A stretch of DNA of 36,694 bases, taken from Brevinematales bacterium (GTDB taxonomy: Bacteria > Spirochaetota > Brevinematia > Brevinematales > GWF1-51-8). Both the position numbers and the translations under genes were made by a program. The first letter of the stretch is position 1; each line of letters starts with the position of its first letter. Under the pieces are notes generated by a model that was not told the origin of the DNA, made no database searches, and saw only the letters and a list, made by a program, of their open reading frames with translations. Below are positions 2,476 through 32,550 of this stretch, in pieces. The DNA lies in NCBI GenBank assembly GCA_020059465.1, contig JAGVBZ010000016.1:1-36694 (forward strand). The letters run 5' to 3'.

Positions 2476-3435
2476 TTACTGGTTCGTTTCGCCTTGGATA
2501 GTTTCGATTTCCTGAACAATATCAAGCTGGGTATCTATGGGTTTAAGCGGCTTATCGAGCGGCTTATCGGAGATCAGTGATTTTGCCGCCTCGATCAGCG
2601 CGTATTTTTTCATCAGCTTGAGTATAGCGTCGGTGTACTTTTCATGCTTAATTCCCTTGGACACCTTGAGGGCGCGGTCGAGGTAAAGCGCGGTTTTATC
2701 GGTCTCGTCCATTTCATAAGACACCATAGCGAGCTTGATCAGGTCTTCGATGATACCGACCGAATTCTCGACCAGTTTATCGTTTTCCAGCGCGAGCTGG
2801 TAATACCTGAACGCGCTGTCCCATTTCTGCTGCTTGCGGTAGATTTCCCCGATATTATAATAATTGTCGGCGAGATTATCGCTCACGCCGTACATTTTAT
2901 TGATCTTTTGGGCGATTTCAAGGGTATAGAGAGCGTTTTCGTCGTCGCCGTTCTTCCGGTAGATGATACCGAGGTTATTATAGACTATCGCTTTCTGAAG
3001 CTCCGACTTTGTATCGTTCAACGCCCTGTGGTAAAACTCGATTGCTTTGTCGACCTGTCCAATGGTGTTATAGAATTTGCCGATGGAAATATGGAGCTGG
3101 AAAAGGTACTTTTTACTTTCCGTGATGATCGACAGGTTTTCAGCGGTAAACAGGTAATTCGACGCTTCGGTTATATTCTTGAACGCCAGATGCAGTTCGG
3201 CAAGGTTCACCATCGCGCTGATCTGCTCGTCGATATTATCGACCGAATAAGCAAGCTGGAGCGCTTCCTCGAGGAACCCCCTCGCGTTTTCGTAATTTCC
3301 CTTTCCGTATTCCTCGACTCCGATGGCAAGGTTATCGGTGATTCGTTTCAGCACATTGGTCTTGACCAGCGGAGCTACGCTGCGGGTACATCCCGCTAAT
3401 CCGAAAAATATTATCAGGGCGATTATTTTTCTCAT
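2476..3435 (-). CDS. TPR-repeat lipoprotein at the end of the Mla operon
   Basis: A 319-residue predicted lipoprotein. The signal peptide MRKIIALIIFFGLAGC ends in a canonical lipobox (LAGC, C16). Residues ~35-290 form about seven tetratricopeptide-type helical hairpins with spacing near 40 residues, including NLGIIYRKNGDDENALYTLE and NIGEIYRKQQKWDSAFRYYQ. Its ATG overlaps the mlaD stop codon (ATGA), so translation is probably coupled to mlaD. The position suggests a protein-binding partner of the MCE transport machine, perhaps a membrane-anchored scaffold, in a cluster that has neither MlaC nor MlaA in this window. That role is inference. The C-terminal ~30 residues are polar and probably disordered. 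Confidence 0.8.
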   Translation of the reverse strand: MRKIIALIIFFGLAGCTRSVAPLVKTNVLKRITDNLAIGVEEYGKGNYENARGFLEEALQLAYSVDNIDEQISAMVNLAELHLAFKNITEASNYLFTAENLSIITESKKYLFQLHISIGKFYNTIGQVDKAIEFYHRALNDTKSELQKAIVYNNLGIIYRKNGDDENALYTLEIAQKINKMYGVSDNLADNYYNIGEIYRKQQKWDSAFRYYQLALENDKLVENSVGIIEDLIKLAMVSYEMDETDKTALYLDRALKVSKGIKHEKYTDAILKLMKKYALIEAAKSLISDKPLDKPLKPIDTQLDIVQEIETIQGETNQ

Positions 3436-4406
3436 TCTCTGTCACCTCCGATGATGGATGTATCGGGCTGTTCCTTTTTCCCGCTTTTCGAACCGATTCC
3501 GAACGGCAGATTCTCCATCACCTTTTTCAGTTCGATCATATCCTCTTTCAATAGAAGGATCACCTTCTTCAAGTCGGACGGCATGCCCTTAAGGTCGGAC
3601 ATCATCCCGTCGATTTTCTTCATCGTCTGGTCGGCGTTATACGCCATACTGTCTATGTATCCGAAGAGTTTTTTATTATCGTGGATGAACGCCCCGATGG
3701 AGTTCTTTTTCTGTTCGATTTCGGCCATAATACCCTTCAGACCGTATGTCATCGAACGGACGTCGTCCAATATACCGATTATTTTATCCGATGCAAGCGC
3801 CTTATCGGTACCCGCCAATCCTCCCATGATCATCTTAAAGCTGTCGGACATATCCCGCACGTTGAGGATAGTCGTATAAAGCACAGGTCCCATATTGTTT
3901 ACCATATCGAGAATGTCGCCCACCTTCACCATCAATTCCTCGGGGCCTCCGGTCGGGATGCTTATATACTGAGTCATCAGGGTCTGACCCTGCGGCATAT
4001 CGGATGAAAGGAGAAGAGAACCCGACAGCAGATTATTGGTCGGATTTTTATCGGGATGCGTCATCAGTTCGAGGCTTGCGCCGCCCAAAAGCCCGCTTGC
4101 GACCTTGATAACACAGTTCTTTTCCATCAGGCGCTGGTATTTATCGTAAACAATCAGGTCGAGACGAATCGTATCATCGGTCTGCAGATCGATACTGGTG
4201 ATTTTTCCGATGATGAAATCCTTGTATTTTACGGCGGTGCCGGGCTGGAGTCCGTATCCCTTATTCAGGAATGTGTAGTAGCTGCTTTTCCGCTCGAATA
4301 AATCGCTGCTCTTCCCGATCAGGATTAGGAACGTGATCAGTATGAAAATCGCGATAACTATAAAACTCGCGACCGCCTTCTGAGCGGCTTTAAATGTAAA
4401 CGGCAT
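3432..4406 (-). CDS. mlaD: MCE-domain substrate-binding protein, MlaD-like
   Basis: A 324-residue inner-membrane-anchored periplasmic protein. One transmembrane helix spans residues ~12-32, followed by an MCE domain at ~40-120 with the family pattern GLQPGTAVKYKDFIIGKI and a later SGLLGGASLELM segment. In known systems MCE proteins form hexameric rings that bind phospholipid and sit on the MlaE permease. The C-terminal ~170 residues are helical and rich in MSDLKGMPSDLKKV-like heptads, longer than in E. coli MlaD (about 180 residues total), suggesting an extended coiled-coil region. GGAGGAG precedes the ATG. It lies 16 nt downstream of mlaF in the order mlaE-mlaF-mlaD. Confidence 0.88.
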   Translation of the reverse strand: MPFTFKAAQKAVASFIVIAIFILITFLILIGKSSDLFERKSSYYTFLNKGYGLQPGTAVKYKDFIIGKITSIDLQTDDTIRLDLIVYDKYQRLMEKNCVIKVASGLLGGASLELMTHPDKNPTNNLLSGSLLLSSDMPQGQTLMTQYISIPTGGPEELMVKVGDILDMVNNMGPVLYTTILNVRDMSDSFKMIMGGLAGTDKALASDKIIGILDDVRSMTYGLKGIMAEIEQKKNSIGAFIHDNKKLFGYIDSMAYNADQTMKKIDGMMSDLKGMPSDLKKVILLLKEDMIELKKVMENLPFGIGSKSGKKEQPDTSIIGGDRE

Positions 4407-4422
4407 GGACTCCTCCTAAACT

Positions 4423-5142
4423 CTATGACAATAGACTGCGGGTAACCTCGTTCTCCGATTTTTTCATCTCGGCGGGGGTCCCGCTCTCAATAATTTTCCC
4501 GTTATAAAGAATTCCCACCCTATCCGCAAGGGGCAGGCCGAACTGTATGTTATTGGTAACCAGTATCATAGTCTTCCGCTGTTTCTTGAGCTTGCGGAAT
4601 ATTTCATCGACCTTCTTTGCGGTCAGGTTGTCTAGGTTGGCCGACGGTTCGTCCCAAAAAATAAAGTCCGGGTTATGCGAGATCGCGCGGATGATCGATA
4701 CCAGAATCCGTTCGCCGGTACTGAGCATACTGGGGCGGAGTTTCAGGTCGTCGTCCCAGTTAACCTCTTTTAAAAACGGCTGGATACGCTCCATGATTTC
4801 ATCGTCTTTCATATTCATGTGGTACTGGTAGAATAATGCGAGATTTTCGAATATATTCAGATTGCTGATCAATGCGGCGTTCTGGAATACAAATCCGGAA
4901 TTTTTATGAAGTTCGAGCATTTTTACCTTTGAGAAACTGAAAATGTTCTTTCCGCCGATAATTACCTCTCCCTTTGAAGGAAATAACAGCCCGGAAATGA
5001 CTTTCAACAGGGTGCTCTTTCCGCTTCCCGAGTATCCGAGAAGGACATAAGTTTCCCCGTCCTCTATCCGTTCGCTGAGATAATCGAAGACCACGTGTTC
5101 CTGAAATTTCAGGCAGATGTTTTTCAATATAATTGCCGGCAT
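4423..5142 (-). CDS. mlaF: ABC transporter ATPase, MlaF-like
   Basis: A 239-residue cytoplasmic ATPase that would power the MlaE permease. The Walker A motif is GYSGSGKST (36-44), the Q-loop lies in FVFQNA, and Walker B with the catalytic glutamate is FIFWDE (160-165), followed by PSANLD. The signature motif is LSTGE (140-144) rather than LSGGQ, a variant with T at the second position. The switch region reads VTNN (195-198), so the usual H-loop histidine appears to be asparagine at residue 197. The start codon lies 2 nt after the mlaE stop, and a GGGG run in the mlaE end serves as ribosome binding site. Confidence 0.9.
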   Translation of the reverse strand: MPAIILKNICLKFQEHVVFDYLSERIEDGETYVLLGYSGSGKSTLLKVISGLLFPSKGEVIIGGKNIFSFSKVKMLELHKNSGFVFQNAALISNLNIFENLALFYQYHMNMKDDEIMERIQPFLKEVNWDDDLKLRPSMLSTGERILVSIIRAISHNPDFIFWDEPSANLDNLTAKKVDEIFRKLKKQRKTMILVTNNIQFGLPLADRVGILYNGKIIESGTPAEMKKSENEVTRSLLS

Positions 5143-5144
5143 CC

Positions 5145-5930
5145 TTACCCCATATAAAACATAATCGTAATAATTATATCCAATAAAAACATCGCGAATA
5201 TAGAACTGACGACCGCGTTAGTAGTCACTACGGGTACCTGGGTGGACGCGAACGCCTGAAACCCGTGATAGATCGATATGGTCGAAATGAAGAACCCGAA
5301 TGTCATCGCCTTAAACGTCCCGGCGAGGATATCCATCATGGTAATCGCCTTAATCACATGCGATAAAAACACGTCGAACGTGATCCCGCCGAGAAGATTT
5401 CCCACTACGAATCCGCCGAGAATTCCCACTCCGATAAAGAAAATATTGAGCAGTACGAGGCCGATCACCATACCCGCGATCCGGGGAAATATGATCATTT
5501 TCAGCGAGTCCACCCCCAGCATTTCTATCGCATCCATTTCGTTATTGATATTCATAGTGGCGATTTCGGCGGCAATAGCGGTACCGGAACGGCTGATGAC
5601 GATCAGCCCGGTGATGATCGGGCCAAGCTCACGCACGATTACCAGGTTCAGAATCTGCCCTACAAGGTCGAGCGCGCCGAAACGGGACAACTGCGTGAAA
5701 AGCTGGAGAACGGTCACCGCTCCGAGGGCAAGAGCAACCAGTCCGATAATTTTGATCGCCATATTCGCGGTGAAAAATATCTGCATGAGCCAGACCTGAT
5801 TAGCGATCTTGCGTCCCTTCGGATTGACGACATAGTCCGAAATAGCATAGACGAACAGGGCAGTGATACCCCCGTAAAATTTGAATTTTGCCCTAACCCA
5901 TTGAAATAGAGCGCTAACCGGATTCTTCAT
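5145..5930 (-). CDS. mlaE: ABC transporter permease, MlaE-like
   Basis: A 261-residue integral inner-membrane protein with about five to six hydrophobic helices. The conserved family core is present: REL GP followed by ITGLIVISRSGTAIAAE, and then a NNEMDAIEMLGVD segment. Known MlaE proteins form the dimeric permease that passes phospholipid between the inner membrane and the MCE ring. It is the first of the three canonical transporter genes and lies 6 nt downstream of the two-helix membrane protein gene. Length agrees with the family (about 260). Confidence 0.92.
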   Translation of the reverse strand: MKNPVSALFQWVRAKFKFYGGITALFVYAISDYVVNPKGRKIANQVWLMQIFFTANMAIKIIGLVALALGAVTVLQLFTQLSRFGALDLVGQILNLVIVRELGPIITGLIVISRSGTAIAAEIATMNINNEMDAIEMLGVDSLKMIIFPRIAGMVIGLVLLNIFFIGVGILGGFVVGNLLGGITFDVFLSHVIKAITMMDILAGTFKAMTFGFFISTISIYHGFQAFASTQVPVVTTNAVVSSIFAMFLLDIIITIMFYMG

Positions 5931-5936
5931 TTTCCG

Positions 5937-6245
5937 TTACTTCGTCTCTTTTTCGTTTTTTTTCGGGATAAACAGATTATATACGATCGCGAAAAGCGAC
6001 CCGACTATCACACCGTCAACGAACGAGAATATCGACAGAACTATCACTTTCCAGAGATTCTGGATGAACGGAACGGACTTAGAAAATTCCAAATCGATAA
6101 TAGTCATCTTTCCGTAGAACGATTCCATCATCGCGATGATTTCCGCGCCGTATCCGGTAAGCGAATACCATAGACTGATTAACAATGTGATCGCGGCCGC
6201 CATAATACCGGCGGATAGCGCTAGTGCCTTAATGTCCATTTTCAT
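5937..6245 (-). CDS. Small two-helix membrane protein in the Mla operon
   Basis: A 102-residue protein with two predicted transmembrane helices, at ~7-28 (ALSAGIMAAAITLLISLWYS) and ~68-92 (LWKVIVLSIFSFVDGVIVGS), and a lysine-rich cytoplasmic tail. The layout and the second-helix phrase FVDGVIVGSLFAIVYN resemble a widespread family of uncharacterised small inner-membrane proteins that databases sometimes call holin-like. The first 17 nt overlap the end of the sigma-factor gene, and AGGGG upstream of the ATG lies inside that gene, so translation is coupled. The position between a sigma factor and mlaE suggests an accessory membrane part, but no function can be assigned from sequence. Confidence 0.7.
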   Translation of the reverse strand: MKMDIKALALSAGIMAAAITLLISLWYSLTGYGAEIIAMMESFYGKMTIIDLEFSKSVPFIQNLWKVIVLSIFSFVDGVIVGSLFAIVYNLFIPKKNEKETK

Positions 6246-19601: not shown

Positions 19602-19626
19602 ATACCGTTTTATCTCACCCCCGTCT

Positions 19627-19650
19627 TTCGTAAAAAATATTTTTCACGAA
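19627..19650 (+). other. AT-rich inverted repeat before the tetR promoter
   Basis: TTCGT-A-AAAAAT pairs with ATTTTT-C-ACGAA, giving 11 of 12 possible base pairs with no loop. It lies between the phosphofructokinase stop and the tetR -35 box. It could be a protein-binding site or, less likely, part of a terminator for the upstream gene. Confidence 0.5.
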
Positions 19651-19654
19651 GTAC

Positions 19655-19683
19655 TTGACTCGCGCCCTCCCCGGTGATATAAT
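19655..19683 (+). promoter_or_regulatory. Promoter of the tetR-RND operon
   Basis: TTGACT (19655-19660) and a perfect TATAAT (19678-19683) are 17 nt apart. This is the strongest promoter in the window and is the only one seen ahead of the five genes that follow. Confidence 0.92.
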
Positions 19684-19706
19684 TAATTAATTAGTTAATT
19701 AATTAA
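19683..19706 (+). promoter_or_regulatory. Probable TetR operator (24-bp palindrome)
   Basis: The two 11-nt arms TTAATTAATTA and TAATTAATTAA are exact reverse complements separated by GT. The site begins at the last base of the -10 box and ends in the ribosome binding site AAGGAG, so a bound dimer would block transcription. That placement strongly suggests autoregulation by the TetR protein encoded next. Confidence 0.8.
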
Positions 19707-19716
19707 GGAGCGAAAA

Positions 19717-20352
19717 ATGGCGCGGCCGAAAAAAGACGAGATAGAAAGCGGGGGGATCAGCGCAAAGGATAAAATCATGGACGCTGCGGAGAACCTGTTT
19801 GCCTCCAAGGGATACGACGCCGCGACTATCGGCGAGATCGGGAAACTGGCGGGGGTGAACTCCGCTCTTCTGTATTATTATTTCGCGAATAAAGAAGCGA
19901 TCCTGCGTCAGTTGATGGAAACCGCGATTCAGGAAGTCACGCGCATGGTGGATGAAAGGTTTAGCAAAATAGTCGAGATCGATTCTGAGGCGTTCGAGCT
20001 GTTTATCACGGATATACTGGATTTCCTGCGGAGAAAGAAACAAATTCTGATTATCATGATGGGAGAGGTTTTACGTGCGGGGCGGGAGGATCATTCTATC
20101 TTTGAGCTGCTTTCCCCGGTGTATGATAATGTGATTGCCAAGCTGAAGGAGCTGAATGTCGATGTCGGGGATATCAATTACCTGCGTATCAAATTGTTTT
20201 TAATCTGTACGTCGCCGCTTCTGATGAGTGTGGTTATCGGCGAGGAATGGGCGGTGTACAATAAGATCGACGAGACGGAGTACCGGTCAAAATATATGGC
20301 CGCGATGAAAGAGCTTTCGACGTTATTGGGATTTCCCTTTATAAAAAAATAA
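19717..20352 (+). CDS. TetR-family transcriptional regulator
   Basis: A 211-residue DNA-binding regulator. The N-terminal domain (residues ~16-65) is characteristic: IMDAAENLFASKGYDAATIG, then the helix-turn-helix GKLAGVNSALLYYYFANKEAI. The C-terminal ligand-binding half (~70-205) is helical and has no obvious relatives by eye, so the inducer is unknown. It opens an operon that encodes an export system, and TetR proteins next to RND pumps commonly repress them until a ligand is bound. The AT-rich palindrome between its promoter and start codon is the likely operator. GGAG lies 6 nt ahead of the ATG. Confidence 0.92.
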   Translation: MARPKKDEIESGGISAKDKIMDAAENLFASKGYDAATIGEIGKLAGVNSALLYYYFANKEAILRQLMETAIQEVTRMVDERFSKIVEIDSEAFELFITDILDFLRRKKQILIIMMGEVLRAGREDHSIFELLSPVYDNVIAKLKELNVDVGDINYLRIKLFLICTSPLLMSVVIGEEWAVYNKIDETEYRSKYMAAMKELSTLLGFPFIKK

Positions 20353-20361
20353 GGAGTCTTT

Positions 20362-21060
20362 ATGCGTTACTTTATTCTGTTGGGATTGCTTACGGTTATC
20401 ACTCCCCTGCTGTCCGCCAAAGACGCGATATGGACAAACTGGAATTCTCCGGCTGGGGCGCAGTCGATTATCAGTTATTACCAGAACCATTATGAGACGA
20501 AAGGGGATTATGATTCGTGCTGGAAATATGCCGAAGCGTTAAACTTTTACGCCAAGATGTATGTGAAAAAGGAAGACCGCAAGCCGTATTACGAAAAGGC
20601 GGTAAAAGCATGCGAAAAAGCGGTAAAGCTCAAACCGAATGGGCCTGAGGGGTATCTTTGGTACGCTACGGTGTTCGGCAGGCTGACGGAAATGAATAAG
20701 GATCCGTTCGGCGTCCCTAAAATAATTGAGCTTACAACCAAGCTGATAGAAATAGACCCGTCCTTCGGGGGAGGAGCCGGATATCTGATCCGTGCGCGCT
20801 TATATCACAAAGCCCCCGGATGGCCGATCAGTGTCGGCGATCACGATAAAGCCCTCGCGGATTATCAGGCCGCGATGAAATACGGGAAAAAGAATAAAGG
20901 TGTCTACCTTTTCTACGCCGAGTTCCTTGTGGAGAAAGGTAAAAAAGACGAGGCGCTGAAGGTGATCGAAAAAGGGCTTGCGATCAAACCCGATCCGGAC
21001 GAACCGAGGGACGATACGGCCGACCAGAAAATGAAGGCGTTAAAAGAGAAATGCAAATAG
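20362..21060 (+). CDS. Exported TPR protein, TatT-like
   Basis: A 232-residue protein with a signal peptide (MRYFILLGLLTVITPLLSA, cleavage expected after LSA). The mature part has tetratricopeptide-type helices: EKAVKACEKAVKLKPNGPEG, GYLWYATVFGRLTEM, a segment RARLYHKAPGWPISVGDHDK, and a C-terminal pair ending KGLAIKPD. The GYLWYA and later RLYHKAP phrases resemble the TatT family, known from treponemal TRAP-transporter accessory lipoproteins, but there is no lipobox here. It starts 9 nt after tetR and has GGAG upstream. As second gene of the operon it may be a periplasmic adaptor for the RND system; that is inference. Confidence 0.75.
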   Translation: MRYFILLGLLTVITPLLSAKDAIWTNWNSPAGAQSIISYYQNHYETKGDYDSCWKYAEALNFYAKMYVKKEDRKPYYEKAVKACEKAVKLKPNGPEGYLWYATVFGRLTEMNKDPFGVPKIIELTTKLIEIDPSFGGGAGYLIRARLYHKAPGWPISVGDHDKALADYQAAMKYGKKNKGVYLFYAEFLVEKGKKDEALKVIEKGLAIKPDPDEPRDDTADQKMKALKEKCK

Positions 21061-21082
21061 CTGAGGAAGGGAGATACTTTCT

Positions 21083-23902
21083 ATGAGAAAATTTTTCGAC
21101 CGCTTTGCGGAATTTACGACAAAGAACGCGATATGGATTATTATCGGGACTATTCTGCTCACTTTTGGGCTTGGCGTTTTCATACTCAGACTGGAAATGA
21201 ATAACGACCTTCTCAATCAGGTATCCCCGGAAAGCGAGATCGGGAAACTTCCCCATCATATCAACGAAACATTCGGGGGAGTATCTCCCCTGATTATCGT
21301 GCTTGAGACTGAGGATGTTTTTACCCATGAAAACCTGAGCCTGATCAGGAAAATTACCCGCACTATCGAGACAAATGCAGAGATCGACAATGTGGTCAGT
21401 ATTACGGAAACCAAAGATATGTCCGCCAACGAGTATGGGATATTAGTGGACGATTTGTTCGGCGGGGATATTCCCACAAACGCGGACGAGATCGCGGCGA
21501 AGAAGAAATATATCATGGGTAAGGATATGTATCTCGGGACGCTGGTATCCACCGACGGGAAATACGCGATGATACTGGTAACCGTGAAAGGCGGCGGCCG
21601 GATCGATAAAATCACCCGTACAATTCGCTTACAGGTGGACGAGCTGATAAATGGGAGCAAGGTTAAAATCTACTACGGCGGCACACCGGCGATATTAAAC
21701 TCGATTTTTGATGTGGTGATCGGCGACCTCGTTGTGCTGGTTCCCTTTGTTATTTTCATTGTCGCGCTTATCCTGTTCCTCTCGTTCGGTACAATTCGCG
21801 GGATACTGCTGCCCCTCCTGTCGGTCGGAATGGCGACTATTATGGCGATGGGAGTTATGGGTGTATTTATGATCAATTTCAGCATGATCGGCGCGGCAAT
21901 TCCGGTTGTTCTGATAGCGGTCGGCAACGCATACGGTATCCATCTGCTGAACAAGTACTATGAGGAAACCGCTAAGGGGATAATCGACCCGAAACGCTTG
22001 GTGCATAACAGTTTACGCGATGTCGGAATCCCGATAATCATGGCGGGAATGACCACATTTTTCGGATTTATCTCGCTGATTTTCTCCGATCTGACGATGA
22101 TTCAGGACTTCGGGAAAATTACTGCGCTGGGAGTGGTTTTAGCGCTGCTTATAGCTGTGCTGTTTATCCCCGCTCTGCTGTCCAGGATGAAGCCTCAGAA
22201 ACAGCGTATCGGCGGAACCGACGGCAAACACCATCATATCGGGAAATTCGCGGTGTTTTTAACGGAAGCGCTGATAACGAAAAGGGTGTGGGTGTTCATC
22301 GTTTTCGGGGTAATCTCGATTGCGTGTATATCCCAGTTCTGGAGGCTGTATCCCGAGATGGACTATCTTTCGTTCTTCAAACCGGACAGCGAGCCTGTTA
22401 CTGTCAGTCATGTAATCAACGATCATTTCGGCGGTTATAACGCTTTTTCAATCTATCTCAAGGGAGATATTTCGGATGCAGGGATTCAGAAACTCATGAC
22501 AGTGCTCGAAGAAAAGACCAAGTCGTATAAGAAAATCGCCTCGGTAGGCGGTGTGCACGATATGATCGCGGAACTGAACTTTCTATGGACGGGGCTAAAG
22601 ACAGTCCCCGAGACGACGGGGGAAGTAGAGAATTTATGGTTTTTTCTCGACGGGCAGGAACAACTCAAAAGTATGGTAACCAAGGATAAAAAGGAAGCGG
22701 TCATTACCTTCCTTCTACCCTCGGTATCATCGGGCTTTGAAAAACAAGTTTTCGATCCCCTGAATGAACTGATTGCGAAGTACCGGGATGGGGTGAAGAT
22801 GGCGCCGGTTTATTTTACCAACAGTATGCTTGTTGAACTGGTCGCGATGATGTTATCCAATGCTTATGGAAAGGACGGGGATATTTCGATAGACTCGCAA
22901 AAACTGAAGGAAACGGTTCAGAACACCGGGTTAGCTGTTATCGGGTATAAACCCGCGTTTCCGGGGGATATTCTGATAAAGTATATGACGGGCGCAGAAT
23001 GCGAGATAACTCTCACGAAGCCGCAGACGGCCGGGATTATCGCGAAAATGAAGGGGCTAAAAGACTGCTCGCCTGAATCCGTTTATTCCGCGATAGCGAA
23101 AATTGTCCCTGTAGGGAACGGATATACTTCAGAGGATGTGAAAATGCTGGCGGAGAGCCTGTCGATCCGTTACGATGAAAATATTCGGGTGCAGCAGTAC
23201 CATTTTGCGGCGGATCAGATCTATAGCGCCCTCGATAAAAACATCGACCGCGAGCGTCTCATGTATGCTATCGGGCCGATGTTCTGGAAAACAATGCCCG
23301 CGGGGAGCGCCTATGACGGCCCTACCGCTGTTGAGAAGAAACTCGATGTAATCGAGGTCAGCGGTTACGCCTACTTATTATCACAGACCAAACAGAGACT
23401 GCTTATCAATCAGGCAACCAGTTTGATTTTCGCGCTTCTCGCCGTGCTTATCCTCAATGCGTTTACCTTCCGGTCTTTCGCAAAGGGGATCGTTTCTATT
23501 ACTGCGATCATATTCACGCTGCTTGTCAATTTCGGGGTGATGGCCGTATTCGGGATACCGCTCGATCTGGTCTCGGTGACAATCGCGAGTATCGCTATCG
23601 GAACAGGTATCGATTATAGTATTCACTTTACCAACCGGTTCTCGCTTGAACTGGAGCGTAACGGGGGCGACGAGAAGCAGGCGATTGCCGGAACGCTTTC
23701 GACGACCGGTATAGGAATCCTTGCCAATGCCGTCTCGGTGGGACTGGGGTTTGTCGTCCTGATGTTCGCGAGCCTGGGCCCGTTACGGACGTTCGGTATG
23801 CTTCTCGCGATCAGTATGCTGGTCAGCAGTATCGCCTCGCTGACTCTGCTTCCGGCGGTATTTCATGTGACGGGCGTGTTTAGAAAAAAAACAACAGATT
23901 AG
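21083..23902 (+). CDS. MMPL/RND-superfamily permease
   Basis: A 939-residue inner-membrane transporter with about 12 helices and two large periplasmic loops (residues ~40-210 and ~440-780). Each half repeats TM1-loop-TM2..6. The proton-relay region in the second half reads GTGIDYSIHFTNRF (D~842, Y~843), as in MmpL and SSD-type proteins. The corresponding first-half segment is VGNAYGIHLLNKYYEE (~281), lacking the acidic residue. This asymmetry is seen in other hopanoid- or lipid-type RND permeases as far as I recall. It is flanked by a periplasmic LolA-like carrier and a barrel gene, which supports a lipid or lipoprotein export role. Start ATG at 21083 after GAAGGGAG. Confidence 0.9.
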   Translation: MRKFFDRFAEFTTKNAIWIIIGTILLTFGLGVFILRLEMNNDLLNQVSPESEIGKLPHHINETFGGVSPLIIVLETEDVFTHENLSLIRKITRTIETNAEIDNVVSITETKDMSANEYGILVDDLFGGDIPTNADEIAAKKKYIMGKDMYLGTLVSTDGKYAMILVTVKGGGRIDKITRTIRLQVDELINGSKVKIYYGGTPAILNSIFDVVIGDLVVLVPFVIFIVALILFLSFGTIRGILLPLLSVGMATIMAMGVMGVFMINFSMIGAAIPVVLIAVGNAYGIHLLNKYYEETAKGIIDPKRLVHNSLRDVGIPIIMAGMTTFFGFISLIFSDLTMIQDFGKITALGVVLALLIAVLFIPALLSRMKPQKQRIGGTDGKHHHIGKFAVFLTEALITKRVWVFIVFGVISIACISQFWRLYPEMDYLSFFKPDSEPVTVSHVINDHFGGYNAFSIYLKGDISDAGIQKLMTVLEEKTKSYKKIASVGGVHDMIAELNFLWTGLKTVPETTGEVENLWFFLDGQEQLKSMVTKDKKEAVITFLLPSVSSGFEKQVFDPLNELIAKYRDGVKMAPVYFTNSMLVELVAMMLSNAYGKDGDISIDSQKLKETVQNTGLAVIGYKPAFPGDILIKYMTGAECEITLTKPQTAGIIAKMKGLKDCSPESVYSAIAKIVPVGNGYTSEDVKMLAESLSIRYDENIRVQQYHFAADQIYSALDKNIDRERLMYAIGPMFWKTMPAGSAYDGPTAVEKKLDVIEVSGYAYLLSQTKQRLLINQATSLIFALLAVLILNAFTFRSFAKGIVSITAIIFTLLVNFGVMAVFGIPLDLVSVTIASIAIGTGIDYSIHFTNRFSLELERNGGDEKQAIAGTLSTTGIGILANAVSVGLGFVVLMFASLGPLRTFGMLLAISMLVSSIASLTLLPAVFHVTGVFRKKTTD

Positions 23903-23911
23903 GAGGATAAT

Positions 23912-24658
23912 ATGAAGAAAATGAAGGGGATTATTACAATCCTGTGTATTGCTGCCGGGCTTTCCTCGGGATACGGTCTCACAGGCGCCGAGGTTCTCGA
24001 TAAGGTCGAGAATGCGCTGACCGGGCCGCAGGATGTCGAATCGTTGAATATCCTGACCCTCGCGAATAGCGACGGAAGCGGTAAGGAGATCCGCGAGATG
24101 AAGATGTACGTCTCCGGGACGGATATGCGGGTAGTGAAATTTACAAAACCCGCCGGTGTCAGCGGAATAGGGCTTCTGGTGACCGGTGAGAACCAGATAT
24201 GGATTTATCTGCCGGAAATGAAAAAGATAAAGATGATACAGGGGTCGTTCAAGAACGACAGTTTCCAGGGTACGGATTTTTCCTACAACGAAATCGGGAG
24301 CTATGAATACAAGAAGGATTATTCCGCTTCGATTAGCTCGGAGGACGATAAAACATATGTCCTTACCCTTATCCGGAAACCGGGGTCGGAGAAACCGTAC
24401 GACAAACTGATGATGACTATCGATAAAACCACATTTATCCCGTCCAAGGCGGAATTCTACAACGGTAAAACACTGAAAAAGATTATGGATATTCTCGAAG
24501 TGAAGAAGTACGGGAAATACGATATCCCGGTGAAAATTAAGGTCGAAGACCTTGAAAAAAAGCACTATACGGAAATGAATATGAAGGACGTCAAGTTCGA
24601 TCAGGGATTAAAGAACAAAGGGATTTTTACCCAACAGTACCTGAAGAAAAAAGAATAA
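23912..24658 (+). CDS. LolA-like outer-membrane lipoprotein-sorting family protein
   Basis: A 248-residue periplasmic protein with a signal peptide (MKKMKGIITILCIAAGLSSGYG, cleavage probably near SGYG). The mature sequence matches the LolA-like family often placed beside RND permeases: VLDKVENALTGP at the N terminus, MYVSGTDMRVVKFTKPAGVSG, the phrase NQIWIYLPEMKKIK, and a basic C terminus. The fold is an open beta-barrel with a hydrophobic cavity that carries lipid or lipoprotein through the periplasm. Genuine LolA is about 180-200 residues and is partnered by LolCDE; the pairing with an MMPL permease instead suggests a different cargo. It starts 9 nt after the permease stop with AGGAGG. Confidence 0.88.
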   Translation: MKKMKGIITILCIAAGLSSGYGLTGAEVLDKVENALTGPQDVESLNILTLANSDGSGKEIREMKMYVSGTDMRVVKFTKPAGVSGIGLLVTGENQIWIYLPEMKKIKMIQGSFKNDSFQGTDFSYNEIGSYEYKKDYSASISSEDDKTYVLTLIRKPGSEKPYDKLMMTIDKTTFIPSKAEFYNGKTLKKIMDILEVKKYGKYDIPVKIKVEDLEKKHYTEMNMKDVKFDQGLKNKGIFTQQYLKKKE

Positions 24659-24668
24659 GGGGGAAATT

Positions 24669-26159
24669 ATGAAAAGGTTATTTCTCGCGCTGACGATTGC
24701 CGGTATTACTGCCTCTGGCGGATGGGGTGCGGAAATCCTGGGGAAGGTAAAAACGGAACTGCGGGTCTCTCCCACCAACGGGGATATCGTATTCAACGAA
24801 CTGAGCGGAAGCCTGAAATTCGATACACAGATCAACGATAATTTTTACGGGATGGTCAAGCTCGGGTTCCGGTATTCGGGACAGCCCAAAGGGCAATCCA
24901 CCCTGAACAATATATTGATCCCGCAGGAACTCGCGTGGAGCAGTTCGATGCTTCCGCTCGATATCCTGATCGACGAGGCATACTTCACGTACGATAATTT
25001 TATTTTCGACGGATTGGAATTCACTGTGGGGAAACAGCGAATCGTGTGGGGTACGGCGGATTTATTCAATCCGACCGATATCATCAATCCCGGCGATTTT
25101 TACGATCTGCTGAGTTTCGGGAAGAAGTCGGCGTCTGTCGCCGTGAATACGACGCTGCATTTTAATATCGCGGAAAGCGAATCGGGACTTCAATTCGTAT
25201 ATCAGCCGCATAGCCCGATTGCGCAGATGAATATTACGATGATCGCGTTGATGGAATCAGGGATTTTGCAGAACATCGTCGCCGGGATACTCCCGAACGT
25301 GACGTCGTTCAGCGACGGCTCGCCGGGATGGACGTCGCCGGCCGCCGAGACGCCCGAACTTTCCATCTACAACGCCTCGTACGGTCTGCGTTATAAGATC
25401 AATCTCGGCCCGCTTGATATTTCCGCCAGCGCGGTCAGCCGTATCAACGACCTGCCGTTTATTAAGAATATTTCTATCCAACAGCAGACGATTATCGATA
25501 TGGGCGGCGGTACGACGAACGTGACGCTGAACGGCAAGAGTTACACGCTGGCCTATTACCGCGAGGCCGAAGCCGGTCTGGATTTTTCATGGAATACCGG
25601 ACTTTTCGTAATATGGGGCGAGGCGGGAGTCACGTTCCCGGAAAAAACGGTATCTGTCATGCGGAGCGACGCTGAAGTGATTGTTATTCCGGTGATGATA
25701 ACCAATAATGTTACGACGATCGGAGAACAAACCTATATCTCCAATCAGCCGTACGTGAAATACACTGTCGGCGGGGACTGCCTGTTCGACGGCGGATGGT
25801 ATATCAATTTTCAGTTCGCCCACGGATTTTTCACCGAACGCGGGCTGACCGGCGCCGAACGCCTTCAGGATTATTTTATCCTCCGGTTTGAAAAAAACTT
25901 TCTCGACGATAAAATCAAGCTCTTTCTTACGGGGATACTGAACGTAGACACTTTTGGCGATGCGTTCGAGAGCTCCGATTTTGGCGCATACTTCAACGAC
26001 CATTACGGCGCGGTAATGCAGTTCGGGATATCCTACAAGCCTACGCCCGGGCTGGACATCACTCTGGGCTCTATGTTATTCGACGGTGCGCCCGGATGCA
26101 CGGTCGGACGGATGAAGGATTACGACCTGATTTATACATCGTTCGAGTATGCGTTCTAA
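24669..26159 (+). CDS. Probable outer-membrane beta-barrel protein (DUF1302-like)
   Basis: A 496-residue exported protein. The signal peptide is MKRLFLALTIAGITASGGWG. The mature part alternates polar and hydrophobic residues in many short strands and includes the phrase FTVGKQRIVWGTADLFNPTDI, which is typical of DUF1302-type and related barrels found beside RND permeases. The C terminus ends FEYAF, and a terminal aromatic residue is the usual Bam-recognition signal of outer-membrane barrels. It starts 10 nt after the LolA-like gene with AGGGGG. It would be the outer-membrane exit or acceptor of the export line. The operon ends at a strong terminator 50 nt later. Confidence 0.82.
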   Translation: MKRLFLALTIAGITASGGWGAEILGKVKTELRVSPTNGDIVFNELSGSLKFDTQINDNFYGMVKLGFRYSGQPKGQSTLNNILIPQELAWSSSMLPLDILIDEAYFTYDNFIFDGLEFTVGKQRIVWGTADLFNPTDIINPGDFYDLLSFGKKSASVAVNTTLHFNIAESESGLQFVYQPHSPIAQMNITMIALMESGILQNIVAGILPNVTSFSDGSPGWTSPAAETPELSIYNASYGLRYKINLGPLDISASAVSRINDLPFIKNISIQQQTIIDMGGGTTNVTLNGKSYTLAYYREAEAGLDFSWNTGLFVIWGEAGVTFPEKTVSVMRSDAEVIVIPVMITNNVTTIGEQTYISNQPYVKYTVGGDCLFDGGWYINFQFAHGFFTERGLTGAERLQDYFILRFEKNFLDDKIKLFLTGILNVDTFGDAFESSDFGAYFNDHYGAVMQFGISYKPTPGLDITLGSMLFDGAPGCTVGRMKDYDLIYTSFEYAF

Positions 26160-26208
26160 GGATTGATTGATTTTTATTCATCAGCCCATTTGTGTAAAAA
26201 AAACACGC

Positions 26209-26245
26209 AGGAGTGTATTTAAAAAAGTACACTCCTTTTCTTATT
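26209..26245 (+). terminator. Terminator of the tetR-RND operon
   Basis: AGGAGTGTA (26209-26217) and TACACTCCT (26228-26236) form a 9-bp perfect stem with a 10-nt loop, followed by TTTCTTATTT. It closes the five-gene operon. Confidence 0.85.
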
Positions 26246-26704: not shown

Positions 26705-29086
26705 TCAGTATATCACCTTTCCGTCCTTGACAGCAGAACTCACCCCGTTAATGGAGACTGATTTCACTCCCGCCGGTAAAACGAATATCATTTTACGACC
26801 CGGGTCGTACGCGCCGTCGGTTTTGACTGTTATCGACGCTTTATCGCCGGACTGCCGGAAAGTGACTCCTGTCAGCAGGTAGCCGCCGTGCATAAAGCTC
26901 CAGCTATTCCCGTCATCCTCGTACACTGCTCCGTAAGCGTATCCGGCCGAATCGGGATACACTGTCATTGTTACGTCACGGCCCTTCGCGAGCGCGGCGG
27001 TGTTTTTCATCTTGAATTCGTAGGTCGGCAGGATCGATCCGCATCTGATGAATACGGGAATGTTCGTAATGGTGACGTCAAGGGAGAATTTCCCGGCGGA
27101 GTACTTCTTCCCAGTCCAGAAGTCGGTCCATTCGCCCGGAGGCAGTACCGCGTCGAACTTGGTCTGCCCTTCCTTGATTACCGGGCAGATCAGCATATTG
27201 TTCCCCATCATGAACTCGTTGGTGACCCCGCAGTAATTGTACCCGTACTCGAAGAATAGCGGGCGCGCGATCGGCGCGCCGGTCAGCGTAGCATGATAGA
27301 CCTGAGTGTATATATACGGTAAAAGACGGTAGCGCAGGTAAAGGTAGTTTCTGATTATCCCATGATATTGCTTGAAATGCTTCGCATAGGGTTCCTGAAA
27401 CAGGGTTCCCTTGCCGGTATGGTCGCGCATGAACGGGATAAAAGTACCGAGCTGAATCCATCGGGTGAAGAGTTCCGCCGACGGGCTTGCAGAGAATCCG
27501 CCGATATCCGAACCGGAGTACGGCATCCCGCTGAGGCCGAGGTTGAGCACCATCGGTACGACGTGCGCGAGATGTGCCCATGACGCTTTGTTGTCGCCCG
27601 TCCACATGAACGCATACCTCTGGATGCCGGGATACGCCGAACGGGTCAGCAGAAAGACCCTGTTCGAAGGGTCTGCGCTGTAGATTCCCATAGAGGTCGC
27701 CATCGCCATCGTGAGGCCGTAGACGTTATGAATCTGCCAGTCGGGCGCGCCGATGCCTTCCCAGTCGCGGAAAGCGTTCATATCCATCCCCCATCCGCTG
27801 ACTTCGGTTTTAAATACGCTGGGCTCGTTCATGTCGATCCATTGGCCGGATATACCCCAGTCCTTAAGGGTTTGATAAAGCCCCGCCCACCAGTCGCGGG
27901 CCGCGGGATTGGAGTAGTCCGGGAAAACACACATCCCGGGCCAGACCTTCCCGATAAAATGATCTTTCCTGTTCGCTTTATACATGAAGGCATCTTTCTG
28001 CATCCCGCTGTCGTAGACCCAATAGCCCGGTTCCTGTTTTACTCCCGGGTCGATGATGGTTACCGTTTTGATGCCTTTCGCCGATAGATCGGACGTGAGT
28101 TTCTTCAGGTCGGGGAATGTTTCCTCGTTGAAAGTGAAACACTTATATTCGTCCATATAATCGATATCGAGCCAGATCGATTCGACGGGCATGTCGTAGG
28201 TTTCGAAGTTTTTCGCGACCGCCCGGACGGCGTTCTCGTCCATATAGGAGTACTTGCACTGATGGAACCCGAATGCCCAGAGGGGCGGAAGGTACGGACG
28301 CCCGGTCATGGAAGTGAATTTTTCGAGGATCTCCTTCGGCGTGCCGGTATAAATATACAAGTTGAAGGTCGTTCCGAAAGTCCCGAAACTGGAGGCGAAA
28401 GATTCGTCCTTGAAGACGGATTGGTATCCCTTCTTTATGTCGGGGTCGTTGAATGAAAAAACAGAAAACGCGGGACTGTCGAGGAATACCCCATAGGAGT
28501 ATCCGGGACTCATCGCGACATACACCGGGAAGGAGGCATAATATGGATACCAGTCTTTGTTGTAATTGCCGAGTGTCATACCGGTCAATTCTAAATTAGT
28601 CGACTGCCCGCCCATCCCGAAAATCCGTTCGCCGTAATAATCGTAATCCACGCAGAATCCTTTATAGTTAGCGATAACGATACCCGACGGTTTCGCGGAG
28701 AATATGACCTTTCCTTTCGCGGTCACAGAAAATTGAAAATCCTTTTTCACTATCTTAACCACAATCCCGCCCGCGTCGAGGAGAATGCTATCCCCGTTAT
28801 CTTTTACGAACGTCTTCACGGTATCGTTCGTATGAATCACCGCATACGAATAATGCGGTACCGGCTTATCCCCGTACTGCCCGTAAATATGCACGATGCC
28901 GTTGGAGAGTATCCGCACATGGAACGTTATGTCAGTATATTCCAGCGCGGCGGAATTATTGGAGACTGCAAAACCCTTCAGCTCGCCCGCCGGTGCGATC
29001 GTATTTCCGCCGGCGGCGGATAAGTTGCAGTGCATACCGAAAAGTGCGGCGGCGATTATTAATAATTTGATGTAAACTTTTTTCAT
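26705..29086 (-). CDS. Secreted GH31-family alpha-glycosidase, copy 1
   Basis: A 793-residue exported glycoside hydrolase. The signal peptide is MKKVYIKLLIIAAALFGMHCNLSA. The domain order is N-terminal beta-sandwich (~40-240), a TIM barrel (~250-590) and C-terminal beta domains. The nucleophile is D418 in WIDMNEP and the acid/base is D498 in FMWTGDN, with RSAYPGIQRYAF between. Phrases such as SIWLDIDYMDEYKCFTF and WAHLAHVVPMVLNLGLSG are typical of alpha-glucosidase-type GH31. Substrate (maltodextrin, alpha-glucoside or alpha-xyloside) is not determined. GGAGG precedes the ATG, and a separate promoter lies 28-57 nt upstream. It is paralogous to the gene at 29209. Confidence 0.9.
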   Translation of the reverse strand: MKKVYIKLLIIAAALFGMHCNLSAAGGNTIAPAGELKGFAVSNNSAALEYTDITFHVRILSNGIVHIYGQYGDKPVPHYSYAVIHTNDTVKTFVKDNGDSILLDAGGIVVKIVKKDFQFSVTAKGKVIFSAKPSGIVIANYKGFCVDYDYYGERIFGMGGQSTNLELTGMTLGNYNKDWYPYYASFPVYVAMSPGYSYGVFLDSPAFSVFSFNDPDIKKGYQSVFKDESFASSFGTFGTTFNLYIYTGTPKEILEKFTSMTGRPYLPPLWAFGFHQCKYSYMDENAVRAVAKNFETYDMPVESIWLDIDYMDEYKCFTFNEETFPDLKKLTSDLSAKGIKTVTIIDPGVKQEPGYWVYDSGMQKDAFMYKANRKDHFIGKVWPGMCVFPDYSNPAARDWWAGLYQTLKDWGISGQWIDMNEPSVFKTEVSGWGMDMNAFRDWEGIGAPDWQIHNVYGLTMAMATSMGIYSADPSNRVFLLTRSAYPGIQRYAFMWTGDNKASWAHLAHVVPMVLNLGLSGMPYSGSDIGGFSASPSAELFTRWIQLGTFIPFMRDHTGKGTLFQEPYAKHFKQYHGIIRNYLYLRYRLLPYIYTQVYHATLTGAPIARPLFFEYGYNYCGVTNEFMMGNNMLICPVIKEGQTKFDAVLPPGEWTDFWTGKKYSAGKFSLDVTITNIPVFIRCGSILPTYEFKMKNTAALAKGRDVTMTVYPDSAGYAYGAVYEDDGNSWSFMHGGYLLTGVTFRQSGDKASITVKTDGAYDPGRKMIFVLPAGVKSVSINGVSSAVKDGKVIY

Positions 29087-29113
29087 TTTATCCTCCGGTT
29101 AGAAACGGCACCC

Positions 29114-29143
29114 ATTATAATATCATGCGTGTTTAAAAGTCAA
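29114..29143 (-). promoter_or_regulatory. Internal promoter for GH31 copy 1
   Basis: On the minus strand TTGACT (29138-29143) and TATAAT (29114-29119) are 18 nt apart, ahead of the ribosome binding site. No copy of the LacI operator palindrome TGGAAACGCTTCCA is seen here, so this gene may escape full LacI control. Confidence 0.7.
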
Positions 29144-29208
29144 AAACGGTTCGGAAATAAACAACAAATACTACTATAGTTATGAATTATTTCCCATTCG
29201 CCCGGAAG

Positions 29209-31587
29209 TTATTCCAGTACCGCCTTGCCGTCAGTTACTGCGACCGCTTTGCCGTTATAGGTCAGCGCGGTGATGCCCTTCGGCAGTACGACCGTGAGTT
29301 TCCGTTTCAGCGCGAAGCCGCCTTCCTTGACCGAGGTGATCGACGCGGAATTACCTGACGACTTATACTCGAACTTGGTGTAGACATACGCGCCCTTCTG
29401 GTACGCATAGCTGACCATATCGTCCTCGAACAGGCGTCCCGATGCGCTGCCCGATTCATCGGGATATATCGTTAATGTGACGTCGCGTTTCTTCTGGAGC
29501 TCCATTGTGCTCATGTAGTCGAAGGCGAACACAGGAATAATGCTTCCGCCCCGGACATAGACCGGGATATCCTCCATCGTTACCGGCAGGGAGTAGTTCC
29601 CCGCCTTAGACACTTTCCCGGAGAAGTAATCGTACCAGATACCTGTGGGCAGTATGACTGAAACGCTGTCCTTTTTCTTCAACGGATCGAGCACGGGCGC
29701 GACGAGGATACTGTCCCCGAACAGGAATTCCTGATCGATATCCAAGTATTCTCCGCCGAACTCGAGGAACAGCGGGCGCGCCACGGGGATTCCGTCGCGG
29801 GATGCCTCGTACGCCATCGTGTAAAGGTACGGCATGAGAGTATAACGGAGTTTCATGTATTTTTTGATGATCGGCAGGCTTTTTTCAAATACGTAGGGTT
29901 CCTGATACTTGGTGCCCTTTTCGGAATGGTCGCGCATGAACGGGATAAACGCGCCGAGCTGGATCCATCGTACGAAGAGTTCTTCGGCGGGGCTTCCGGT
30001 ATACCCGCCGATATCCGCGCCGCTGAACGGCACCCCGGATAATCCGAGGTTCAGCACCATACTGACGTTCATAGCGAGGTGTGTCCAATCGGCGGAATTA
30101 TCGCCCGTCCATACGAACGCAAATCGCTGGACACCCGCGTATCCCGAACGTGTCAGGATAAAGACCCGTTTATCGGGCTGTATCGCGCGCATCGCGGCAA
30201 AGGTCGCGGAGATCATGGTCAGCCCGTAGATATTATGCAGGTACATATGCTCTGTTGGCGTCCCGTTATTGTCCTGTACTGCATCGCCGGCCATCGTACC
30301 GCCGGGTACGTTAAAGACGCTCGGCTCGTTCATATCGTTCCAGAACCCGTCGATGCCGAGATTGACGAGGACTGGGTGATGGGACTGCCACCACTTGAAG
30401 GTTGCGGGCTTGGTGAAGTCAGGGAATGCGCAGAGTCCGGGCCATACGCTCCCGGTATAGATCTTCCACGGCGATGCCGCGGACTTGCTTTTATTCGTAA
30501 TCATGACGTACACGCCGAGATTGGTGCCGGAGGTGTAAACCCCGTATTTTTTATCGGTCTTGATACCCGGGTCGACAATCGCGACAAGGCGGATACCCTG
30601 TTTTTCGAGGGCGATATCCATCCCCTTCGGGTCGGGGAACGCCGCCGGATTATAGGTAAACGCCATATTATTGCTCATAAACCCGATATCGAGATAGATA
30701 GAATCGATGGGAAGTCCGTTTTTCAGGAACTTTTCCGCCACGCCCAGCACTTCCTTCTGGCTTTCGTAGCTGTAACGGCACTGGTGAAAACCGAGTCCCC
30801 ACATCGGGGGGAGATTGGCGAACCCGGTGAGCGAGGAATAATTCTTGATGACGGTTTTAGGGTCGCCGGGGATTATGTAAAAATCGATACGGTCGTCATA
30901 CACCGCCTGCGAGTAATCGTCCTTTTTGAAGCTGAACTCGGACCGGGCGGGATTATCGATAAACACCCCGTAGGAATATCCGCTGCCGATAGCAAGATAG
31001 AACGGGATCGAACAGTAGACCGGGTCGGTGGTGAAACCGTACTTATAGGTATCGGAGTTGTAATTCTCGAATTTCCTTCCGGTAAGCTCGAGTTTCCCTG
31101 TTTTTTCACCCAGCCCGAAATAGCGTTCTTTTTCCGCCGGGCTGACGAGATACAGTTTTTCCTCTTCATCGTCTTCGACCAGCGACGTCTTGAAGATCTG
31201 TTTACCGTTCTGGAGCAGCGACACGCCGAACATGCCGTCCTGCGGGACGCGCACTTCATAGTTATTCCATCGGATGATATACAACTGGTTGGACAGGAAA
31301 AGAATCTTGTCCGCGCCGCCGAGCGGTTTTTCCGACACGACCGCGTAGGAATAATGATAGGGCAGTGCCGGACGGTACGCCGCGGACACCTTTACGACCG
31401 GCCCGTCGAGAATCTCCACGACCGCGGAAAGATTATCATAATTCAGGACAAGTTTTCCGTTTTTATAATCGTAGGATATCAATTTTCCCATCTTGCCGGA
31501 CGTGCCGGGTCTGACGGACGCCTGCTGGCACAACGGTACGGTCAGCAGGATGAATAAAACAGTAAATAAGGCAAAAAACTTTTTCAT
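29209..31587 (-). CDS. Secreted GH31-family alpha-glycosidase, copy 2
   Basis: A 792-residue exported glycoside hydrolase related along its length to the next gene. The N-terminal MKKFFALFTVLFILLTVPLC looks like a signal peptide; the cysteine lies too irregularly placed for a confident lipobox. Catalytic residues are nucleophile D418 in WNDMNEP (Asn instead of Ile at the preceding position) and acid/base D496 in FVWTGDN. Conserved flanks are DPGIKTDKKYGVY, LTRSGYAGVQRFAF and YTGSPAEELFVRWIQ. It starts 18 nt after the LacI gene with a GGAGG site, making it the first structural gene under that regulator. Substrate specificity is unknown; the differences from copy 1 suggest division of labour on linkages or chain length. 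Confidence 0.9.
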   Translation of the reverse strand: MKKFFALFTVLFILLTVPLCQQASVRPGTSGKMGKLISYDYKNGKLVLNYDNLSAVVEILDGPVVKVSAAYRPALPYHYSYAVVSEKPLGGADKILFLSNQLYIIRWNNYEVRVPQDGMFGVSLLQNGKQIFKTSLVEDDEEEKLYLVSPAEKERYFGLGEKTGKLELTGRKFENYNSDTYKYGFTTDPVYCSIPFYLAIGSGYSYGVFIDNPARSEFSFKKDDYSQAVYDDRIDFYIIPGDPKTVIKNYSSLTGFANLPPMWGLGFHQCRYSYESQKEVLGVAEKFLKNGLPIDSIYLDIGFMSNNMAFTYNPAAFPDPKGMDIALEKQGIRLVAIVDPGIKTDKKYGVYTSGTNLGVYVMITNKSKSAASPWKIYTGSVWPGLCAFPDFTKPATFKWWQSHHPVLVNLGIDGFWNDMNEPSVFNVPGGTMAGDAVQDNNGTPTEHMYLHNIYGLTMISATFAAMRAIQPDKRVFILTRSGYAGVQRFAFVWTGDNSADWTHLAMNVSMVLNLGLSGVPFSGADIGGYTGSPAEELFVRWIQLGAFIPFMRDHSEKGTKYQEPYVFEKSLPIIKKYMKLRYTLMPYLYTMAYEASRDGIPVARPLFLEFGGEYLDIDQEFLFGDSILVAPVLDPLKKKDSVSVILPTGIWYDYFSGKVSKAGNYSLPVTMEDIPVYVRGGSIIPVFAFDYMSTMELQKKRDVTLTIYPDESGSASGRLFEDDMVSYAYQKGAYVYTKFEYKSSGNSASITSVKEGGFALKRKLTVVLPKGITALTYNGKAVAVTDGKAVLE

Positions 31588-31605
31588 ATGCGCCTCCGGG
31601 AATTA

Positions 31606-32550
31606 TTATGAACCTCTATCGACAACGACGGGTAAGAACACCCGCGATTTCGGTTTATCCTTTTTAGAATAATTCGCGACGGTCATCGCCCCGTCGTAAC
31701 CCATCTCGAATGCGGGCTGGCGGACGGACGATAAGCCGAGGTACTGCGAAGCGGGAGCGTCGTCATATCCGATAATCCTCGCGCTGATACTTTGTTCCTT
31801 CATGTACTGCATGACCCCGTACGCGATGCGGTCGCAGAAGCAGAATACCCCGTCGATACCGCCGGATTGAAGGACTGCGGCGGCCGCATTGTAAGCGGTC
31901 TTTTCGTCGATATGGATATATGTCTCGTTTGACAGGGTTTTCCCGGCGCGGGAAAGCTCCGTGCGGAAGCCGTGGAGACGGTCGTCCTGCTGCTGGCTTT
32001 CGCCGCTGTCGCCGATATACGCGATTTTCCCGCACCCCGCCGATACCAGGTACTTCGCGGCGAGGCTTCCTCCGAGCATGTTATCGATCCAGAACGACAC
32101 CGCATGATCCTCGTGCCTGTCGAGAAAAACGACGTTCGTATTCTGGGCGTTCAGGTGCGACAGGCTGTCATGTGAAATCCCCGCGGCGACGACTATGATC
32201 CCCGCGAGGTTCTCCTTGGCGATATGCCCGACCACCAGTTCCTCGTAAGCGCCGAGATTGAACACCATCATGTTCTTATCGATCTCGCTGAACGCGGAAT
32301 GGATGCCCCGGAGGATTTCAAAATAGAACGGGTGAATGATGCTGGGCAGTACGACCCCGATTGTAGTGGAGGAGAACCCTCCGCGCGCGAGCTGACGCGC
32401 CGCCTCATTGGGACGGTATCCCAGCTTCCATGCGACAGTCAGGATTCGGTCGCGGGTATCGGGTCGGATATTCGGTTCTCCGTTCAGCGCGCGGGAGACT
32501 GTGCCCAGCCCCACACCCGCTGCTTTCGCGATATCTTTAATTGTCGTCAT
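31606..32550 (-). CDS. LacI-family transcriptional regulator
   Basis: A 314-residue repressor-type regulator. The DNA-binding head is TIKDIAKAAGVGLGTVSRAL (3-22), followed by hinge-helix sequence PNEAARQLARGG. The effector domain (~60-310) has the periplasmic-binding-protein fold with IGVVLPSIIHPFYFEILRGI, VVFLDRH, and IIGYDDAPASQYLGLSSVRQP. It is the first gene of a unit with two GH31 glycosidases and so probably senses a breakdown sugar or sugar phosphate. Its own promoter contains the likely operator. GGAG precedes the ATG. Confidence 0.93.
   Translation of the reverse strand: MTTIKDIAKAAGVGLGTVSRALNGEPNIRPDTRDRILTVAWKLGYRPNEAARQLARGGFSSTTIGVVLPSIIHPFYFEILRGIHSAFSEIDKNMMVFNLGAYEELVVGHIAKENLAGIIVVAAGISHDSLSHLNAQNTNVVFLDRHEDHAVSFWIDNMLGGSLAAKYLVSAGCGKIAYIGDSGESQQQDDRLHGFRTELSRAGKTLSNETYIHIDEKTAYNAAAAVLQSGGIDGVFCFCDRIAYGVMQYMKEQSISARIIGYDDAPASQYLGLSSVRQPAFEMGYDGAMTVANYSKKDKPKSRVFLPVVVDRGS

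Follow-up and report, generated by a model that had tools for sequence, protein, structure and literature searches.

We describe a five-gene operon in a Brevinematales-like spirochaete MAG (3.19 Mb, 96.6% complete) that joins an RND pump, a LolA-fold carrier and an outer-membrane barrel, a combination of a known kind, to a probable TPR carrier, whose gene was found as part of such a cassette in no other genus. The MMPL-LolA_like-barrel core is common to about 20 phylum labels and is not peculiar to the Brevinematales genome. We think it probable, if well short of certain, that the operon encodes an inducible exporter, driven by protons, with an acyl lipid or amphiphile as its cargo. Positions refer to the window, i.e. 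the whole stretch of 36,694 nucleotides that was analysed, unless a locus name precedes them.

The operon comprises five ORFs, all on the plus strand and separated by gaps of 9, 22, 9 and 10 nt (Table 1). Every ORF starts with ATG and has a purine-rich ribosome site on its 5' side. The promoter is the top consensus match in 9.5 kb, ranking first of 18 candidates between positions 18500 and 28000, and the terminator is a clear hairpin. An earlier note, made from the sequence alone, had described five tightly spaced genes between a strong promoter and a strong terminator and had labelled their products TetR, TPR, MMPL, LolA-like and outer-membrane barrel; these statements and all five labels were borne out, the barrel by its AlphaFold2 model together with a weak DUF1302 match. 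The same note had proposed a comparison of gene order in related genomes: three congeneric genomes carry the same five genes, collinear and with similar gaps, and the operon promoter recurs in the upstream regions of two of these loci (L032 and L033).

Table 1. Genes and control sites of the operon, with positions in the window.
Feature	Position	Strand	Evidence
Sigma-70-type promoter, TTGACT-17-TATAAT	19655..19683	+	11/12 consensus matches, TG before the -10 box
Near-palindrome TTAATTAATTAGTTAATTAATTAA (24 bp), probable TetR operator	19683..19706	.	Single occurrence in the 3.19 Mb genome; matched in 0/100 window shuffles
TetR-family regulator, 211 aa	19717..20352	+	PF00440 (TetR_N), 1.6e-16
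Periplasmic TPR protein (232 aa, signal peptide), BstC/TatT-like group	20362..21060	+	BstC model, 3.1e-10
MMPL/RND permease, HAE3/HpnN-like, 939 aa	21083..23902	+	PF03176, 2.1e-47
LolA_like periplasmic carrier, PF17131, 248 aa	23912..24658	+	5e-43
Outer-membrane beta-barrel, DUF1302-like, 496 aa	24669..26159	+	AlphaFold2 pLDDT 89.9; PF06980 8.7e-4, below cut-off
Intrinsic terminator	26209..26236	+	12-pair stem, 4-nt loop, T tail

The near-palindrome covers the final base of the -10 box together with the probable start site. Similar palindromes occupy the equivalent position in three congeners (L032, L033, L034), and order-level relatives have different repeats there. Because the TetR gene comes first and the palindrome lies over the start site, autorepression of the operon is likely; the description "self-regulated" in the earlier note stands in this predicted sense. 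Among NCBIfam models the regulator matches RefZ and Bacillus FadR best, with every score under its cut-off. FadR is a fatty-acid regulator; the match to it lies far below the threshold and is only a hint.

The surroundings of the operon hold several further features. Directly 5' of its promoter lies an imperfect AT-rich inverted repeat (TTTCGTAAAAAATATTTTTCACGAA, 19620-19650), the counterpart of which is a perfect palindrome in congeners (30 bp in L032, 24 bp in L033); it may serve to terminate the phosphofructokinase gene, or be a second operator. A 260-aa ORF on the minus strand (23783-24565) runs antisense to the permease/LolA_like junction and is open in L032 too, at 61% identity; codon bias probably accounts for this frame as a mere shadow. 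Past the operon terminator and ahead of the glycosidase genes lies a small ORF with Cys in its product (MCPLRESCGFYNNN..., plus strand, 26420 onwards), which has a strong ribosome site and a promoter-like site of its own. There follow, in a row on the minus strand (26705-32550), a gene of glycoside hydrolase family 31 (26705-29086), a second large gene of similar size (29209-31587) and a gene whose product resembles, by eye, a LacI-type regulator (31606-32550).

The permease belongs to the MMPL/RND proteins: it matches PF03176 over two stretches at 162 bits (cut-off 20.5) and has 12 hydrophobic segments in a simple scan. Its scores against TIGR00921 (HAE3; 7.3e-72, 242.5 against a cut-off of 351.9) and TIGR03480 (HpnN; 7e-44, 150 against 751.9) place it, judged by these curated models, as a near relative of HAE3/HpnN and not as a member. 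The closest solved relatives are HpnN (PDB 5khn, 7.5e-17) and then mycobacterial MmpL4/5/3. A GIDY motif in the second half is nearly invariant; the first half carries GNAY or GSAY, i.e. no Asp, in nearly all relatives, and since only the second-half motif keeps its Asp, a single Asp relay is likely. None of the five operon proteins matches membrane fusion protein or TolC-type factor families, and the operon is not a classical tripartite HAE1 efflux pump. We also considered the permease insert at about residues 605-712, which is absent in Brevinematia relatives, as a genus-specific docking site for the TPR protein. This idea was rejected: most distant relatives without a TPR gene have a stretch of equal or greater length there (median 228 versus 211 residues), so loss in the near relatives appears the more likely history.

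The LolA_like protein is a clear member of PF17131 (147 bits against a cut-off of 30, covering profile positions 2-184 of 184), with 3bk5, 9tp6, 3buu and 4z48 as relatives in the PDB. The barrel falls below the DUF1302 threshold (PF06980; 18.8 against 23.2). Foldseek places its model closest to AlgE, at a TM-score of about 0.5, and then to general porins; the model supports an outer-membrane barrel and little more.

The TPR protein has a signal peptide without a lipobox. Homologues of about 30-43% identity occur throughout the phylum, two paralogues are encoded in the same genome, and this genus alone was found to have such a gene within the cassette. All 22 members of the family match the BstC model at E <= 1e-3 (best 3e-13) and 14 of the 22 match TatT; two richer TPR proteins of the window, taken as a control, do not match the BstC model. 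The operon protein itself remains below the curated thresholds (40 bits against 350 for BstC, NF045602; 20.9 against 26.5 for TatT, PF16811), and the family profile finds BstC (7t1s, 8.7e-16) as its best natural solved protein by sequence. An AlphaFold2 model built from three sequences only (pLDDT 86.5) matches PTPIP51 (7cc7), a TPAT protein (8g52), BstC (7t1s) and TatT (3u64) over the full length with TM-scores of 0.65-0.69; most designed repeat proteins score 0.36-0.48 and TTC0263 (2pl2) 0.63, and the general resemblance among TPR folds limits what the fold says about lipid binding. Of these relatives, BstC is a sterol binder (PMC10942540), and PTPIP51 has a TPR domain with phosphatidic acid transfer activity in vitro (PMC9239997). 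Because of the signal peptide and the nearness to the BstC/TatT/PTPIP51 fold, lipid binding by the TPR protein is likely, and a second periplasmic lipid carrier is a more likely role than the plain adaptor that the earlier note had proposed. Elsewhere in the genus, a TPR paralogue lies directly 3' of two LptF/LptG permease genes (L152, 4160-7631), which suggests a TPR partner for LPS-type export too.

To place the operon among other bacteria, we scanned genome contigs with a profile of the permease alignment. The scan gave 80 loci, nearly all from MAGs, under about 20 phylum labels taken from record titles; labels may be wrong for some bins, and their number is too large for this to alter the picture. 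Where 4 kb or more of sequence follows the permease gene, the MMPL gene is accompanied by a LolA_like gene in 49 of 51 loci and by a barrel gene in 48 of 51. A TetR gene lies upstream of the permease in 40 of 52 loci, and a TPR gene was found in none of the 52. The nearest named records are two 'Spirochaetes bacterium' genomes, GWF1_49_6 and GWF1_51_8, with 77% and 64% permease identity, followed by permeases of Brevinematales MAGs at 33-35%. In the open-access literature we found no paper that treats this cassette as a family.

We then compared operonic or internal extra genes with the other ORFs of the same loci by Fisher's test. KAS III (FabH-like) genes make up 7 of 105 operonic neighbours and 0 of 304 other ORFs (p 6e-5), and patatin-like phospholipase genes 10 of 105 and 2 of 304 (p 4e-5); the p-values are guides only, since redundant loci were thinned by hand and the loci are not phylogenetically independent. 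Both kinds of neighbour come from distant phyla. Pfam scans of about 100 proteins per set point in the same direction, with START-type lipid-binding proteins and MlaE in the near set; PlsC-type acyltransferases are not enriched among operonic neighbours (4 versus 3, at the same set size). One locus (L106) encodes an MMPL-LolA_like fusion, which we discarded as proof of hand-over: a separate start and signal peptide are still present in its LolA part, and loss of a stop codon may explain the fusion.

Searches of the genome, made family by family, found three LolA_like genes, and the two outside the operon (L178, L179) are clustered with genes for LolD, FtsX and a barrel. Both barrels are homologues of the operon barrel (profile E-value 2e-14 for one, hhalign probabilities of 97 and 92%). 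These LolCDE/MacB-type ABC loci therefore share the LolA_like-barrel pair with the operon and differ from it in having ATP-driven FtsX permeases instead of an MMPL permease and no adjoining TetR or TPR gene. Across 42 LolA_like loci of the phylum (these two and 40 more), an FtsX gene is near on the same strand in 34 and a barrel gene is near in 31; the loci were picked mostly among those in which no MMPL gene was seen, and the counts show that the arrangement is common, not its true share. Since the other two LolA_like genes adjoin homologous barrels and LolCDE-type permeases, carrier and barrel look like a module usable with either engine. The earlier note had drawn a contrast between LolCDE and MMPL; because LolCDE-type loci have a homologous barrel as well, it is a contrast of swappable engines and not of a lipoprotein path with a new one. 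A locus in another spirochaete (L201, 4059-13272) lines up genes for MMPL, a pair of ABC transporters, a LolA_like protein and a barrel. More tentatively, and with somewhat less than even confidence, we propose that LolA_like and the DUF1302-like barrel form a general two-gene module for outer-membrane export in diderms, used with either proton-driven MMPL or ATP-driven LolCDE-type pumps, an unnamed lipid-export family in about 20 phyla to which this genus would have added a TPR carrier of PTPIP51/BstC fold.

The closest characterised system is AmeABCD of Castellaniella defragrans, whose DUF1302, LolA-superfamily and HAE3 parts confer hydrocarbon tolerance (PMC6394551). Both systems bring together an HAE3-type RND permease, a LolA-superfamily periplasmic protein and a DUF1302-type barrel, and hydrophobic substrates, probable for the operon, are a further likeness. 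They differ in the carrier (DUF1329 in AmeB, PF17131 here) and in the COG4447 protein AmeC, for which the operon has no counterpart, so that it is not strictly of AmeABCD type; AmeABCD in turn has no TPR gene, lies in a catabolic genomic island and has been described without a TetR gene in its cassette. Growth on C28 alkane also induces a protein of Thalassolituus oleivorans (TOL_3187) that combines MMPL and LolA-like domains, together with its porin-like neighbour (PMC6304351). BstABC of Methylococcus capsulatus resembles the operon in its RND permease and in the outer-membrane-associated, TPR-like lipid-binding BstC, which belongs to the group of the operon TPR protein (PMC10942540). It differs in that BstB, of the phosphonate-binding type, takes the place of LolA_like, a barrel is not among its described parts, the operon proteins score far below the BstA/BstC cut-offs, and squalene/hopene enzymes were not found in the genus. 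The hopanoid transporter HpnN acts with no partner dedicated to it in the periplasm or outer membrane (PMC6394551). Hopene cyclase was not found in the genus genomes. Mycobacterial MmpL7 and LppX likewise pair an RND lipid pump with a LolA-fold carrier; their envelope is different, LppX is a lipoprotein, and no DUF1302 barrel takes part.

Our model builds on the gene set, its order, families and conservation, the TPR export signal and the barrel fold, all read from sequence or structure models, and takes its direction of transport from relatives. TetR on the start-site palindrome would repress the operon until freed by a ligand, for which the cargo itself and an acyl-CoA precursor are candidates. 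The MMPL permease would lift the cargo from the inner membrane into its own periplasmic domains, powered by protons that pass via the second-half Asp-Tyr pair of GIDY. LolA_like would then ferry it across the periplasm in a hydrophobic groove, with the BstC/TatT-like TPR protein as a putative second periplasmic lipid carrier in this genus, and the DUF1302-like barrel would receive or release it at the outer membrane.

No biosynthetic genes lie within the operon. FabD and FabZ are encoded about 6 kb upstream on the opposite strand, and Mla genes lie further off, where a phospholipid-transport-type locus (2476-6245, minus strand) encodes MlaD, an ABC ATPase, MlaE and a TPR protein. Squalene/phytoene synthase and hopene cyclase gave no match in three genomes of the genus (at least 93% complete) and were detected in control genomes, which makes a sterol, hopanoid or carotenoid cargo unlikely. 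LPS is unlikely as well, since the genes for LpxC and LptF/LptG lie at other sites of the genome. Of the cargo classes that are left, an acyl lipid or amphiphile fits best. The cassette's spread across phyla, its lipid-enzyme neighbours and its lipid- or hydrocarbon-handling relatives make a path for a lipid-like cargo from inner to outer membrane the best reading; this sustains the lipid half of the dedicated lipid or lipoprotein path suggested in the earlier note, and the lipoprotein half found no positive support.

Alternatively, the operon could be an inducible efflux system for external toxic hydrophobics such as free fatty acids, terpenes or alkanes, in which TetR senses the toxicant and membrane building plays no part. 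A TetR gene at the head of its own operon fits detoxifying efflux, deletion of AmeABCD makes cells less tolerant of monoterpenes and increases their net influx of Nile Red (PMC6394551), and TOL_3187/3188 are induced by C28 alkane (PMC6304351). However, the neighbours enriched elsewhere are lipid biosynthesis and phospholipase genes, with no catabolic family prominent, and we consider this explanation the less likely of the two. A lipoprotein-sorting branch, in which an MMPL permease would take the place of LolCDE and hand lipoproteins to LolA_like, draws on the annotation of PF17131 as lipoprotein-sorting and on one solved relative named LolA superfamily protein. It is quite improbable, given that the genome has two further LolA_like genes with LolCDE-type permeases, that lipids or small molecules are the cargo of the characterised HAE3/MmpL relatives, and that a dedicated barrel stands in place of LolB; the operon contains no FtsX or LolD gene, and so lacks the LolCDE partner of a Lol system.

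A TetR-ABC-ABC-MMPL-LolA_like operon (PG1175-1181) and similar ones in Porphyromonas/Prevotella are induced 13- to 136-fold by iron limitation (PMC10434189), and the MMPL-ABC-ABC-LolA_like-barrel layout of L201 resembles these iron-regulated operons. With siderophore export by MmpL4/5 as a further parallel, an iron- or haem-linked exporter comes into view, but around the operon we recognised neither siderophore nor iron genes and the ABC pair is absent, which leaves this reading very improbable. The least probable one is an uptake route, with barrel and LolA_like bringing hydrophobic nutrients inward, because known MMPL/RND pumps are, as is well established, proton-driven exporters and GIDY is conserved. 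What speaks for it is that a barrel fold alone gives no direction and that TPAT/TatT-type TPR proteins have been assigned to uptake (PMC10942540).

We return to export of an acyl lipid or amphiphile as the favoured reading. The transport of lipids other than LPS to the outer membrane is still poorly understood, and a cassette that stays intact in about 20 phyla beside lipid enzymes is a strong candidate for such a non-LPS route. What gives the operon wider value is that its core is conserved and that RND and ABC engines share carrier and barrel within one genome; if true, this sharing would provide a rule for reading many unassigned operons.
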